Below, one piece after another: positions 5,132 to 51,261 of a stretch of 64,000 nt of DNA. Each line of letters begins with the position of its first letter. Position 1 is the first letter of the stretch. The position numbers and the translations under genes are program-made. The DNA comes from Mucilaginibacter sp. GTDB taxonomy: Bacteria; Bacteroidota; Bacteroidia; Sphingobacteriales; Sphingobacteriaceae. The DNA lies in the NCBI GenBank assembly GCA_025352225.1, contig JANXTT010000065.1, positions 1-64,000 on the forward strand, written 5' to 3'. The notes below the pieces were generated by a model, which searched no databases, was not told where the DNA came from, and saw nothing but the letters and a program-made list of their open reading frames with translations.

Positions 5132-5159
5132 TTGTAATCCCCAAATAATTGTAATTTTG
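5132..5159 (+). promoter_or_regulatory. Bacteroidota-type promoter for asnS
   Basis: TTG at 5132-5134, then 17 bases, then TAATTTTG at 5152-5159. This matches the Bacteroidetes primary sigma consensus TTG-N17-23-TAnnTTTG. The start codon is 18 bases after the box, which leaves a leader of about 12 bases. Confidence 0.65.
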
Positions 5160-5177
5160 CCGCTCAAAGATTTTATA

Positions 5178-6626
5178 ATGAGCCAGAGAACAAAGATCAA
5201 AGCACTATTGCAAACCAACGAAACAGGTTTCGAGGTAACGGTTAAGGGTTGGGTACGTACATTTCGCAATAACCAGTTTATAGCGCTTAATGACGGCTCT
5301 ACAAATAATAACCTGCAAATAGTGGTTGACTTTGAAAACACCGACCCTGCAACCTTAAAGCGTTTAACAACCGGCGCCGCCATTAGCGTGGTAGGTAACG
5401 TTGTACCATCGTTAGGCAAGGGGCAAAAGGTGGAAGTTAAAGCGACCTCCATTGAAATTTTGGGCGATTGCGACGCGGAAAAATATCCGCTGCAGCCAAA
5501 AAAACATAGTCTTGAGTTTTTAAGGGATATTGCGCATTTACGTTTCCGCACCAATACCTTTAGTTCGGTTTTCAGGGTGCGTAACAGTTTGTCGTTTGCG
5601 GTGCACCAGTTTTTTCAGGAACGTGGGTTTGTTTACCTGCATACACCCGTCATTACCGCGTCGGACGCGGAGGGCGCTGGCGAAACATTCCGTGTAACCA
5701 CACTTGACCCAGTTAAACCGCCACTAAATGAGCATGGCGAGGTTGATTTTAAACAGGATTTTTTTGGTAAGGCAACTAATTTAACCGTGTCCGGACAATT
5801 AGAGGGCGAGCTTGGCGCGATGGCCCTGAGTGATATTTATACTTTTGGCCCAACTTTTCGTGCCGAAAACTCCAATACAACCCGCCACCTGGCCGAGTTT
5901 TGGATGATAGAACCCGAAATGGCATTTTATGACCTGGTTGACAATATGGACCTGGCCGAGGCCCTGTTAAAATATGTGATCAGTTACGCTATAGCGCATA
6001 ACAAAGAGGATATTGAGTTTTTAACCCAGCGTTTGCTGGAAGAAGAAAAATTAAAGCCACAGCAAGACCGCTCCGAATTATCGCTGATAGACAAGCTGCA
6101 GTTTTGTTTGGATAACGATTTTCAGCGGCTTACCTATACCGAGGCTATTGATATTTTAAAAGAGTCATCTCACAATAAGAAGAAAAAATTTCAATACCTG
6201 ATAGAAGGCTGGGGTACTGATTTGCAAAGCGAGCATGAGCGTTATTTGGTGGAGAAGCATTTTAAAAAACCCGTTATCCTGACTGATTATCCGGCCGAGA
6301 TCAAAGCTTTTTACATGCGCCAGAACGAACCCGATGCACAAGGACGTAAAACAGTACGCGCCATGGATATCCTGTTCCCTGGTATTGGCGAAATGGTTGG
6401 CGGCTCGCAACGTGAAGAACGCCTTGATAAGCTGGAGCAGCGTATGGACGAAATGGGGATCCCTAAAGACGAACTTTGGTGGTATTTAGATACCCGCCGC
6501 TATGGTGCCTGCCCGCATGCTGGCTTTGGCCTGGGCTTTGAGCGATTAGTGCAGTTTGTTACGGGCATGGGTAACATAAGGGATGTAATACCTTTCCCAC
6601 GCGCGCCAAAAACCGCCGAATTTTAA
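5178..6626 (+). CDS. asnS: asparaginyl-tRNA synthetase
   Basis: Class II aminoacyl-tRNA synthetase charging tRNA-Asn. The 482-aa product has an N-terminal OB-fold anticodon-binding domain (about 10-110) and the class II catalytic core. Motif 2 is visible as [16 protein letters not shown] and motif 3 as [17 protein letters not shown], followed by IRDVIPFPR. The ATG at 5178 was preferred over a TTG at 5157 because the latter falls within the promoter box. Length fits bacterial AsnRS. The cognate tRNA-Asn(GUU) is also in this window at 51170. Confidence 0.97.
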
Positions 6627-34591: not shown

Positions 34592-35068
34592 TTAATCCAA
34601 AGTTATTTGTCTTTTTATACTTTCTTCCAAAGATATAAAGGTTTCTGTACGTTGGATGCCTTTTACACTTTGTATCTGCTCATTCAGGATTTCGCGCAGA
34701 TGATTAGTGTCGTGGCATACAATTTTCGCGAAAATACTCCAGCTTCCTGTAGTATAATGCAGTTCAACAATTTCTTTAACGTTTTTTAGTTGTTTTACTG
34801 CTTCATTGTACTGTGATCCCTTCTCCAGAAAGATCCCCAAGAACGCGCAAATGTCATACCCTAATTTTTGAGGATCCACTTCCAGATTGGCGCCTTTTAT
34901 CACGCCCATCTCTTCCAACTTCTTCATCCGAACATGTATGGTTCCGCCAGATACGATCAAATCTTTCGCTATCTCCGTGTATGGAGTAGTAGCGTTCTTC
35001 ATTAATATTGATAAAATTTGGATATCCAAATTATCAATTTCTAAATTCTGAGCTTTTTTGTGCGACAT
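34592..35068 (-). CDS. Lrp/AsnC family transcriptional regulator
   Basis: A 158-aa regulator with an N-terminal winged helix (LDIQILSILMKNATTPYTEIAKDLIVSGGTIHVRMKKLEEMGVI) and a C-terminal RAM ligand-binding domain (AFLGIFLEKGSQYNEAVKQL and VELHYTTGSWSIFAKIVC). Members form octamers that respond to amino acids. Target genes are not known; it is divergent from the tandem tRNA-like RNAs, and the 160-bp intergenic region could carry its operator. Confidence 0.92.
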   Translation of the reverse strand: MSHKKAQNLEIDNLDIQILSILMKNATTPYTEIAKDLIVSGGTIHVRMKKLEEMGVIKGANLEVDPQKLGYDICAFLGIFLEKGSQYNEAVKQLKNVKEIVELHYTTGSWSIFAKIVCHDTNHLREILNEQIQSVKGIQRTETFISLEESIKRQITLD

Positions 35069-35142
35069 AAATTTATAAATGTTTATCTAAATACAAGTTT
35101 AATTAAAATATATGTAAAAATAAAAATATTTTATTGAAATAT

Positions 35143-35173
35143 TTGCAAGAAATGAATTTCAGTGTTAGATTTG
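35143..35173 (+). promoter_or_regulatory. promoter upstream of the tandem tRNA-like RNAs
   Basis: TTG at 35143-35145, 20 bases, TAGATTTG at 35166-35173. This has the same layout as the tRNA-Asn promoter at 51117-51147. Transcription would start near 35180, about 48 bases before the first tRNA-like fold. Confidence 0.6.
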
Positions 35174-35227
35174 TATCAAGCAAATAACCTAAAAGCTTAA
35201 CACGTTCTTTTTTTTGAAACAACAAAT

Positions 35228-35339
35228 TGTTGGGTGGTGAAATTTTTGGCAGACACACCTCCTTGTCGCGGTGGCGGAGAATATGGGAAACCCGAAGCGG
35301 GCTAACCACTCTATGAAGGTTCGAATCCTTCCCCAACAG
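35228..35339 (+). ncRNA. tRNA-like RNA, copy 1 (GUC anticodon position, giant variable arm)
   Basis: About 112 bases fold as a tRNA. The acceptor stem is TGTTGGG/CCCAACA (35228-35234 with 35332-35338), the D stem GTG/CAC and the D loop contains GG. The anticodon arm is CCTCC/GGTGG with a central T-T mismatch and loop TTGTCGC, placing GUC at 35265-35267. The T arm is GAAGG-TTCGAAT-CCTTC. The variable region is about 40 bases and itself forms GAG/CTC, TGG/CCA and CCCG/CGGG. The D arm looks leucine-type, but the discriminator is G and the anticodon position would be Asp. CCA is not encoded. Confidence 0.65.
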
Positions 35340-35340
35340 C

Positions 35341-35360
35341 AATTCCGGTGAGATGGAATT
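35341..35360 (+). other. spacer hairpin between the tRNA-like RNAs
   Basis: AATTCC (35341-35346) pairs with GGAATT (35355-35360) around an 8-base loop, exactly between copy 1 and copy 2. Possibly a processing signal; no U-run follows. Confidence 0.4.
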
Positions 35361-35366
35361 ATATCC

Positions 35367-35481
35367 TGTAGGATGGTGAAATTTTGGCAGACACACCTCC
35401 TTGTCGCGGTGGCGAAGATTCTGGGAAACTCTTAGCAATAAGAATAACCACTTCGTGAAGGTTCGACTCCTTCTCCTACAG
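35367..35481 (+). ncRNA. tRNA-like RNA, copy 2 (GUC anticodon position, giant variable arm)
   Basis: About 115 bases with the same layout as copy 1. The acceptor is TGTAGGA/TCCTACA (35367-35373 with 35474-35480), the D and anticodon arms are identical to copy 1 (GUC at 35403-35405), and the T arm is GAAGG-TTCGACT-CCTTC. The variable region forms CGAAG/CTTCG, TGG/CCA and TCTTA/TAAGA with a GCAA loop. Stems differ in sequence from copy 1 but keep pairing, while GGGAAAC and TAACCAC are unchanged. The discriminator is again G. Confidence 0.65.
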
Positions 35482-35519
35482 CTCTTCTCATAATTTAGGT
35501 TTATAATTGGTTAGTAAAG

Positions 35520-35538
35520 GCCCCTGCCCATCAGGGGC
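35520..35538 (+). terminator. terminator after the tRNA-like RNAs
   Basis: GCCCCTG (35520-35526) pairs with CAGGGGC (35532-35538) around CCCAT, followed by TTTGCTGTTTT. It ends the tandem RNA unit. The rest of the gap to 35733 is AT-rich and shows nothing I can name. Confidence 0.8.
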
Positions 35539-35733
35539 TTTGCTGTTTTACAGCATTTTTAAAAAATATAAATGATGAAGGATATGCATAATTAATTCTC
35601 GAATTTTTCACAAATAATTTGCAATAAGTTGATTGCTAATGACTTATATAAAGATAGGTATTAACAGCGATTCACGCAATTTATTCTTAACGAATGATTA
35701 GTATACTACGCTACAATTATCCGCTTGCAATTT

Positions 35734-36351
35734 TCAGTATAAGGCTACCAACTCGCTAAAATCTGATATTTTATGTTTTGACGTGTGGGTGGCATGGCGC
35801 CCGTTTTTATCATAGTGTATAGTGTCTATCCCAAGCTGGTGCGCTGCTTTAATTTCTGATTCGGGATCATCACCAACAACCAACACGTCTTCGGCCTCGT
35901 AATTGTATCTTTTCATAATATCAGCAAATACATCTTTTTTTGTTTTTGGTGATACTGTAAAGTCAACTATATGGATCTCTTTAAAGTCGTTTTCAATTTC
36001 CATACCCCTAATTTTACTATACTGTAGTTTTTTAAAACCGGTCGTCACCAGAAAACGCTCGGCGGGCACCTTTTTGATATGATGATAATCTTCAAACGGT
36101 TTTATTTCACCCTCGAAAGTCAGATTTTTGATCATATCAATTGAAGCCGCATTAAGTTTTTCATCGAAATTATGTAAAGCGGCTACTACCTGAAATGGCT
36201 TAGACATAATATCAAGTTTGATCTGATCAATATTATAGTCAGGGTCGCCAGAATCTTTAATAAGTTTAAGCAAGGGTTTAAATAACTCGTCCAGTATGGA
36301 GCTAACCGCGTATATGGTGTTATCAAGATCGTATATGATCGCCTTTTTCAT
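35734..36351 (-). CDS. HAD family hydrolase
   Basis: A 205-aa phosphatase-like protein of the haloacid dehalogenase superfamily. Motif I is IYDLDNT (nucleophile Asp8, acid Asp10), motif II is FLVTTGF, motif III is the lysine in SPKTKKDVF and motif IV is VVGDDPESEIKAA. The helical cap of about 70 residues between motifs I and II suggests subfamily I. Substrate unknown; candidates are sugar phosphates or nucleotides. It lies downstream of carB on the same strand but behind a strong terminator, so it is probably expressed separately. Confidence 0.88.
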   Translation of the reverse strand: MKKAIIYDLDNTIYAVSSILDELFKPLLKLIKDSGDPDYNIDQIKLDIMSKPFQVVAALHNFDEKLNAASIDMIKNLTFEGEIKPFEDYHHIKKVPAERFLVTTGFKKLQYSKIRGMEIENDFKEIHIVDFTVSPKTKKDVFADIMKRYNYEAEDVLVVGDDPESEIKAAHQLGIDTIHYDKNGRHATHTSKHKISDFSELVALY

Positions 36352-51169: not shown

Positions 51170-51243
51170 TCCTGAGTAGCTCAGCTGGTTAGAGCATCTG
51201 ACTGTTAATCAGAGGGTCGCTGGTTCGAGCCCAGCCTCAGGAG
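51170..51243 (+). tRNA. tRNA-Asn (GUU)
   Basis: A 74-base cloverleaf: acceptor TCCTGAG/CTCAGGA, D arm GCTC-AGCTGGTTA-GAGC, anticodon stem TCTGA/TCAGA with loop CTGTTAA giving anticodon GTT, T arm GCTGG-TTCGAGC-CCAGC, discriminator G. CCA is not encoded. A perfect terminator follows at 51262. The downstream side of this tRNA borders a set of accessory genes, so it may have been an integration site. Confidence 0.97.
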
Positions 51244-51261
51244 CCTCAAAATCAATGATTT

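Follow-up and report, generated by a model that had tools for sequence, protein, structure and literature searches.

Tandem tRNA-like RNAs of Bacteroidota combine aspartate identity elements with GatCAB-substrate elements and may act as carriers for asparagine formation

Judged from sequence conservation, a family of tRNA-like RNAs in the Bacteroidota combines elements of tRNA-Asp that face AspRS with elements of tRNA-Asn that face GatCAB, since the aspartate determinants, a U1-A72 pair and a GGCA D loop are frozen while positions 33 and 37 drift. We consider it rather probable that these RNAs are hybrid, probably non-decoding carrier tRNAs for the formation of asparagine. That such a carrier is charged and amidated appears likely; that asparagine supply is its purpose is a view we hold with somewhat less assurance, though we favour it. 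Compared with the openly licensed literature, the new element is the dedicated hybrid RNA carrier.

Two members of the family lie in tandem in the window, by which we mean the whole stretch of 64,000 nucleotides analysed here; the genome to which it belongs (4.56 Mb, 97% complete) is referred to as the window genome. The following features of the window are used below:

5157..6626, + strand: AsnRS gene (TIGR00457, 588.5 bits at 5193-6623), not positionally linked to the RNAs
34592..35068, - strand: Lrp/AsnC-family regulator of 158 aa, divergent from RNA copy 1 and 160 bp away from it
35125..35143, no strand assigned: 19-bp dyad AATATTTTATTGAAATATT, which overlaps the -33 element and is a candidate AsnC operator
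35142..35173, + strand: Bacteroidota-type promoter, with TTTG at 35142-35145 and TAGATTTG at 35166-35173
35228..35339, + strand: RNA copy 1, 112 nt, placed by sequence, Rfam tRNA score and covariation; acceptor TGTTGGG/CCCAACA, D arm 35237-35256, anticodon stem-loop 35258-35274 with GUC at 35265-35267 and C38 at 35269, variable arm 35275-35314 (40 nt, three helices), T arm 35315-35331, G73 at 35339, no CCA encoded
35367..35481, + strand: RNA copy 2, 115 nt; acceptor TGTAGGA/TCCTACA, GUC at 35403-35405, C38 at 35407, variable arm 35413-35456 (44 nt, three helices), G73 at 35481, no CCA encoded
35517..35541, + strand: terminator-like hairpin 3' of the tandem pair
51170..51245, + strand: ordinary tRNA-Asn (GUU) with U1-A72, for comparison only

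The sequence-only reading had placed two RNAs of 112 and 115 nt at these positions, each with a long structured variable arm. The sequence bears this out: every stem that had been named is present, the arms form three helices in both copies and both RNAs score as tRNA. When the region was analysed with cmscan, copy 1 (35.6 bits, E 6e-06) and copy 2 (34.1 bits, E 1.5e-05) exceeded the gathering score of 29 bits of the Rfam tRNA model RF00005 with all arms present. With our own covariance model R2, which has both copies among its building sequences, they reached 126.8 and 123.1 bits. ARAGORN called neither RNA in the window, and a whole-window cmscan run with fast filters listed the tRNA-Asn at 51170 as its sole match. 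As ARAGORN also called none of the family members in ten further loci, genes of this type have probably been overlooked in many genomes.

Using blastn, the pair or a single copy was found in 23 of 24 other genomes of the same genus and in two of 16 from other families. The covariance model R2 was derived from 12 copies and applied to the window's family (251 genomes) and class (395 genomes; we take the class to be Bacteroidia in GTDB terms); the printed tallies of 251/251 and 330/395 do not equal membership of the RNA family, many of the matches being short. Calling a genome positive at a match of at least 105 nt and at least 62 bits, we obtained at least 68 RNA-positive genomes among the 395, in at least 19 families; this includes one (G486) that scored 56.8 bits in the class search and 98.6 bits in a separate search of its locus, and was counted as positive. 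Homologues with paired stems, which the sequence-only reading had asked for in related genomes, thus turned up in the covariance search, and beyond the genus. RNA-negative calls may be false, as the strict filters scored 9-14 candidates per genome. Ten short R2 matches (76-84 nt, 53-59 bits) were called by ARAGORN as tRNA-Leu (GAG) in nine cases and as tRNA-Asp (AUC) in one. The count of 68 is a lower bound, because the length criterion misses a short-armed member in genome G320. This 76-nt relative (L314:239-314, minus strand; G320:C23:55338-55413), called tRNA-Asp (AUC) by ARAGORN, keeps U1-A72, G2-C71, U35, C36, C38, G73 and GGCA, and has AUC in place of GUC and a short variable loop. The broader model R3 gives it 66.7 bits. 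Perhaps the giant arm is not essential, or its loss is recent.

When genome contigs were scanned for one sequence of the anticodon arm, 82 stretches were obtained, 69 of which hold the D and anticodon arms of the RNA; the other 13, which do not, comprise one cut at its end (L100) and 12 from other phyla. Some copies stand alone, others form tandem arrays (three copies in L203, five in L198) or are spread over several contigs of one genome (G115). For the analysis of individual positions we used the best 115 of 121 R2 matches, which correspond to 100 distinct sequences; one copy cut by the end of its locus and five weak tRNA-like matches were left out.

The evidence for RNA structure is comparative, not energetic. 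Single-sequence folding energies were unremarkable (z 0.03 and -1.23 for the two window RNAs), and the reverse complement of copy 1 folded somewhat better (z -1.63). In a free alignment of 12 distinct copies, 28 pairs were 96.1% paired versus 48-60% in slid controls. Among 81 distinct copies (83 aligned) the same number of pairs was 96.8% paired versus 51-62%, and 17 pairs had changed on both sides; because the structure guided this larger alignment, its counts are biased in that direction, and the free alignment is the cleaner test. The selection on structure that had been claimed for the pair is therefore supported by covariation in both alignments. The seven pairs of the acceptor and the five of the T stem were paired in 99.8% and 100% of cells, respectively.

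The 100 distinct copies measure 107-195 nt, with 37-123 nt (median 48) between anticodon stem and T stem. The variable arm is built of three helices (basal, short second and variable apical) and an internal loop. The internal loop, which we take to resemble the UAA/GAN motif of rRNA, carries GAN on one strand (82/100) and UAA on the other (88/100; CAA in 11). In 27 of 38 arms of at least 65 nt the apical part carries GACCAC, mostly as GGGUUGACCAC (for example L244:4876-5016 and L181:1501-1671), and in 26 of these 27 it lies within GGNU(U/A)GACCAC or the form without N; this is a possible protein-binding or docking element. Two divergent members (L216:4936-5042 and L237:4807-4922), with the odd anticodon loops CGUUCUA and UCGUCUA, are possibly decaying copies; L216, a weak member, looks decayed.

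For decoding, U33 and a purine at position 37 are usual; G10 is a minor aspartate element in E. coli, and long variable arms are accompanied by a Leu-like D arm. Among the 100 distinct copies U1-A72, G2-C71, U35, C36, G73 and the D-loop sequence GGCA were invariant (100/100 each), while G34 was present in 97 and C38 in 98, giving a GUC anticodon in 97. We read GGCA as A at position 20a, that is, as the lack of U20a. Position 37, by contrast, was U in 90 copies, G in six, C in three and A in one (a purine in 7/100), and position 33 was U in 87, G in 11 and C in two, so that the family does not show the usual decoding features, which the window copies themselves keep (U33 and G37). The pair 29-41 was C-G in 55 copies and a U-U mismatch in 41, and G10 was found in only 45. 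With tRNA-Asp the family shares the anticodon, C38, G73 and G2-C71 but neither G1-C72 nor the short variable loop; the ordinary tRNA-Asp of the window genome has G1-C72, GGUU, the anticodon loop CUGUCAC and A37. Both sequence features of a GatCAB substrate, U1-A72 and the lack of U20a, are present, and neither the anticodon nor the usual arm length of the class II tRNA-Leu and tRNA-Ser is.

The excerpts of PMC9976931 on which we draw name G73, G34, U35, C36 and C38 as strong aspartate determinants, assign a minor part to the second pair, and describe how G1-C72 of tRNA-Asp aids the positioning of the acceptor end on E. coli AspRS. They also state that U1-A72 permits amidation of Asp-tRNA-Asn by GatCAB, and that G1-C72 together with U20a protects Asp-tRNA-Asp from it. 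By the same excerpts, GUC, C38 and G73 form one aspartate set, and the conflict of identity elements perceived by the sequence-only reading dissolves. Its suggestion of a non-translational role gains support from the relaxed positions 33 and 37 across the family. Of that reading as a whole, the selection on structure, the homologues and the non-translational option stood and the identity conflict did not, while U1-A72, GatCAB, the AsnC gene and the spread beyond the genus had escaped it.

Gene content was compared in 80 hand-picked genomes (40 RNA-positive and 40 RNA-negative, 91-100% complete), among which related genomes are not independent. GatB was detected in 40/40 RNA-positive versus 21/40 RNA-negative genomes, GlnRS in 29/40 versus 20/40 and both together in 29/40 versus 1/40 (Fisher p 2e-11, kinship ignored); the RNA-negative genomes had GatB alone of the two in 20 cases, GlnRS alone in 19 and both in one. 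AsnRS, an enzyme that needs free asparagine, was over the cut-off in 80/80. Within this set, GatCAB in genomes with both GlnRS and AsnRS is thus nearly confined to those that carry the RNA, and the window genome, too, has GatB, GlnRS and AsnRS. A second comparison drew on 72 genomes, all from the window's family, and gave GatB in 38/39 RNA-positive versus 11/33 RNA-negative ones; the RNA-positive G067 gave no GatB match. At the level of genera, GatB was present in 7/7 RNA-positive versus 0/3 RNA-negative genomes of g37, and in all three RNA-negative and all five RNA-positive genomes of g34.

The sole RNA-negative genome of the 40 with both GatB and GlnRS, G035, encodes a GatB-AspRS fusion of 1106 aa with the Pfam domains GatB_N, GatB_Yqey, anticodon OB fold, tRNA-synt_2 and GAD. 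This suggests that another lineage retained GatCAB for the same Asp-to-Asn chemistry. The fusion gene (L306:1304-4624; G035:C19) immediately follows an amidase-family gene, presumably gatA, and the genome also has GlnRS, AsnRS and a stand-alone AspRS. At an AspRS site that we take to matter for tRNA specificity, the Asp/Asn ligases in the PDB (4wj3, 4rmf and 5w25) have His and the E. coli enzyme (1c0a) has Leu. The fused AspRS of G035 has His; the enzymes of 13 RNA-positive genomes other than the window genome show Leu, Lys or Phe at this site, and in no case His. By this marker the host AspRS looks discriminating, and a non-discriminating AspRS acting on tRNA-Asn was rejected as an explanation, the His being absent from 13/13 RNA-positive AspRS read.

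With respect to asparagine supply, the window genome gave no match to AsnA, and its best AsnB hit among the matches listed (E 1.2e-12) fell short of the cut-off; since the genome is 97% complete, a synthetase gene may have been missed. Its GatCAB and hybrid RNA make a tRNA-dependent route to asparagine plausible. As a general rule, the idea that the RNA replaces AsnA or AsnB failed. Among the matches listed, AsnB homologues of any type were over the cut-off in 68/80 genomes and in 33/40 RNA-positive ones, AsnA was found in 3/40 RNA-positive versus 4/40 RNA-negative genomes, and by best E-values 7/40 versus 4/40 were without AsnA and over-cut-off AsnB, so that synthetase absence does not separate the two groups. 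With an AsnB homologue in 33 and AsnA in three of the 40, the RNA is not the sole source of asparagine in most RNA-positive genomes. In the excerpts used here, PMC4206432 lists 18 genera, Bacteroidetes included, with AsnRS, GlnRS and GatCAB and without asparagine synthetase, reads such enzyme sets as possibly making asparagine on ordinary tRNA-Asn, and reports that tRNA-dependent synthesis rescues asparagine-auxotrophic E. coli.

The gene next to the RNAs encodes a regulator in which both the helix-turn-helix domain (Pfam HTH_AsnC-type, PF13404) and the ligand-binding domain (AsnC_trans_reg, PF01037) score over the cut-off. When 450 ORFs from 60 hand-chosen loci of 53 genomes were clustered, this Lrp/AsnC gene was the only neighbour recurring in more than three families (12 families). 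It stands beside the RNA in 35/60 loci, the window included; the other 34 neighbour genes are 52-88% identical to the window's, and in 34/35 loci the gene lies divergently upstream at 106-220 bp, the exception (L199) having it 51 bp downstream of the nearest RNA copy. A relative of at least 51% identity occurs in 40/40 RNA-positive genomes. Among the 40 RNA-negative ones, clear relatives are found in all seven of the window's family and in G026, and weaker candidates in G327, G295, G284 and G313. With model R3, no RNA was detected within about 1.5 kb of the AsnC gene in the eight RNA-negative genomes with a clear relative (0/8). In 16 RNA-negative loci, with ORF starts read by eye, we did not find an asparagine synthetase gene taking the place of the RNA beside the AsnC gene.

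A sigma-type promoter and a terminator had been claimed to flank the RNAs. In the stretch 35060-35740 no sigma-70-like promoter was seen upstream; the TTTG / TAnnTTTG pair at 35142-35145 and 35166-35173 matches what we take to be the Bacteroidota promoter consensus, and TAnnTTTG occurs within 125 bases upstream of 74/100 RNA copies. The terminator was recovered as the terminator-like hairpin at 35517-35541, with two such sites in the region versus 0.4 expected. Allowing up to two mismatches, the pattern of dyad AATATTTTATTGAAATATT was found in 33/90 upstream regions versus a mean of 13.8 and a maximum of 23 in 200 shuffled sets, the pattern having been derived from the same upstream regions on which it was scored. 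Because of this shared origin of pattern and test data, the case for the dyad as a candidate AsnC operator is weak, if suggestive.

Downstream, the first base after G73 is C in 100/100 copies, and CCA follows directly in 9/100. A trailer with AGGTTTATAATTGGTTAGT and a terminator with a GCCCATC loop stands 3' of 20/100 copies (35482-35516 in the window; also L198, L204, L242 and L255), those seen all belonging to the window's family, and is conserved though non-coding. A boxA-like GTTCTTTA, which in our view resembles an rRNA leader element, lies within 70 bases upstream of 14/100 copies (for example L198:3984, L204:4892 and L242:6442). The five copies at L198:3984-5601 are spaced about 370-400 bp apart, each with a terminator-like hairpin 3' and promoter-like sequence 5' as read by eye, an array that suggests selection for gene dosage.

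From these data we infer a course of events that runs through transcription, CCA addition, charging, amidation, ribosome exclusion, asparagine release and control by AsnC. The RNA would be transcribed from the Bacteroidota promoter, trimmed and given its CCA end. A discriminating AspRS should load it with aspartate, because its anticodon loop, G2-C71 and G73 are those of tRNA-Asp, and GatCAB should convert the bound aspartate to asparagine, because U1-A72 and position 20a are of the GatCAB-substrate type. The sequence evidence bears directly on these two enzyme steps. The resulting Asn-RNA would be unable to read asparagine codons, and its odd loop and large variable arm would probably keep it from reading aspartate codons; asparagine would be released for AsnRS or other use, and the divergent Lrp/AsnC regulator probably controls the promoter. 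In its fullest form, as a metabolic, tRNA-derived Asp-to-Asn platform with AspRS and GatCAB elements, an arm that keeps the ribosome off or brings in a releasing enzyme, and a level set by AsnC, we put this scheme forward tentatively.

In favour of the carrier we count the frozen determinants, the relaxed decoding positions, the co-occurrence with GatCAB, the G035 fusion, the AsnC neighbour, the lack of AsnA and of an over-cut-off AsnB in the window genome, the AspRS without His and the rescue in the PMC4206432 excerpts. Against it, U1-A72 may lower charging, since G1-C72 aids acceptor-end positioning in E. coli AspRS, and G10 is kept in only 45/100 copies. Synthetase absence is no commoner in RNA-positive genomes, G067 has no GatB match, and GatB occurs in 11/33 RNA-negative genomes of the second set. 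The tRNA-Asn alternative in the PMC4206432 excerpts also counts against it.

Other destinations for the charged and amidated RNA have to be weighed. Its asparagine or aspartate might be passed to a lipid, a peptide or a cell-wall precursor by an aminoacyl-tRNA transferase, for which the peptidoglycan tRNA-Gly of staphylococci is a precedent. A relaxed loop with conserved charging and amidation elements fits this equally well, the elaborate variable arm could dock a transferase, and with the AsnB homologues in 33/40 RNA-positive genomes, among the matches listed, free asparagine would often not be needed. We nevertheless think it unlikely: neighbour clustering of the 60 loci, with cluster representatives read by eye, gave no recurrent transferase or hydrolase, only the AsnC gene, and an AsnC-type regulator, together with the joint loss of RNA and GatCAB, suggests amino-acid supply.

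It is improbable, in our estimate, that the RNA serves as a scaffold or sensor which binds AspRS and GatCAB as a regulator or transamidosome scaffold, while metabolic flux runs over tRNA-Asn and any charging of the RNA would be a side effect. In favour of this, the RNA retains the binding determinants, U1-A72 is likewise found in the window's tRNA-Asn, synthetase, tRNA and amidotransferase assemble into transamidosomes (PMC9976931, excerpts), and PMC4206432 proposes, in the text excerpted, synthesis on tRNA-Asn for such an enzyme set. Flux over tRNA-Asn needs a non-discriminating AspRS, though, and the 13 RNA-positive AspRS are without His; nor is there an obvious need for an invariant G73.

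A translating tRNA that inserts asparagine (or aspartate) at aspartate codons, as regulated mistranslation, would account for the complete cloverleaf, the GUC anticodon, the RNA's own promoter and the U33 and G37 of the window copies, and some odd-shaped allo-tRNAs do translate in E. coli (PMC7609411, excerpts). We give it little credence, because position 37 is not a purine in 93/100 copies, U33 is lost in 13, the U-U stem mismatch occurs in 41 and the genome has a normal tRNA-Asp. Ordinary tRNA-Leu variants, pseudogenes or mobile-element debris are very improbable: a Leu-like D arm, several copies in some genomes and the hypothesis in the excerpts of PMC7609411 that some allo-tRNA-like genes accompany transposable elements stand against covarying stems, invariant identity positions, at least 19 families and AsnC synteny in 12. 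An ordinary tRNA-Leu was rejected on length, GUC and score gap, and a tRNA-Leu model does not explain the two copies, the family measuring 107-195 nt versus 76-84 nt for the ten short matches, nine of them tRNA-Leu with GAG; chance resemblance was rejected on covariation.

The carrier reading has counterparts among known systems. In the tRNA-dependent asparagine synthesis of Deinococcus, Thermus and Bdellovibrio, as given in the excerpts of PMC4206432, GatCAB likewise amidates aspartate bound to a U1-A72 tRNA in cells that also have AsnRS and GlnRS, but the carrier is the ordinary tRNA-Asn and the AspRS is non-discriminating; here AspRS looks discriminating, and the presumed carrier is a separate hybrid RNA with an aspartate anticodon and, in nearly all copies, a giant arm. 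Allo-tRNAs resemble the window family as odd tRNAs with long variable arms and GUC among their anticodons (PMC7609411, excerpts). They differ in having 12-bp acceptor branches of 8/4 or 9/3 and mostly serine (some alanine) identity; the window family has 7 + 5 pairs, not 8/4 or 9/3, and aspartate identity. The excerpts of PMC7609411 mention irregular tRNA arrays in soil metatranscriptomes, and the word 'Bacteroidetes' does not occur in the text of this review.

The staphylococcal peptidoglycan tRNA-Gly is, like the RNA family, a paralogue for a job outside translation with eroded decoding features, and differs in its amino acid, its ordinary size and the lack of a GatCAB step. In E. coli, AsnC controls asnA, and asnC and asnA form a divergent pair. 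The arrangement in the window is alike in that an AsnC-family regulator diverges from a presumed asparagine-forming unit, that unit being an RNA instead of a synthetase gene.

If confirmed, the carrier would be a tRNA retained to make an amino acid and not to read the code, and a candidate source of asparagine in genomes for which no synthetase was detected, such as the window genome. If the reading is true, its identity rules would be legible from conservation alone, with charging and amidation positions frozen and decoding positions free, and it would explain why many Bacteroidota keep GatCAB despite having GlnRS and AsnRS.
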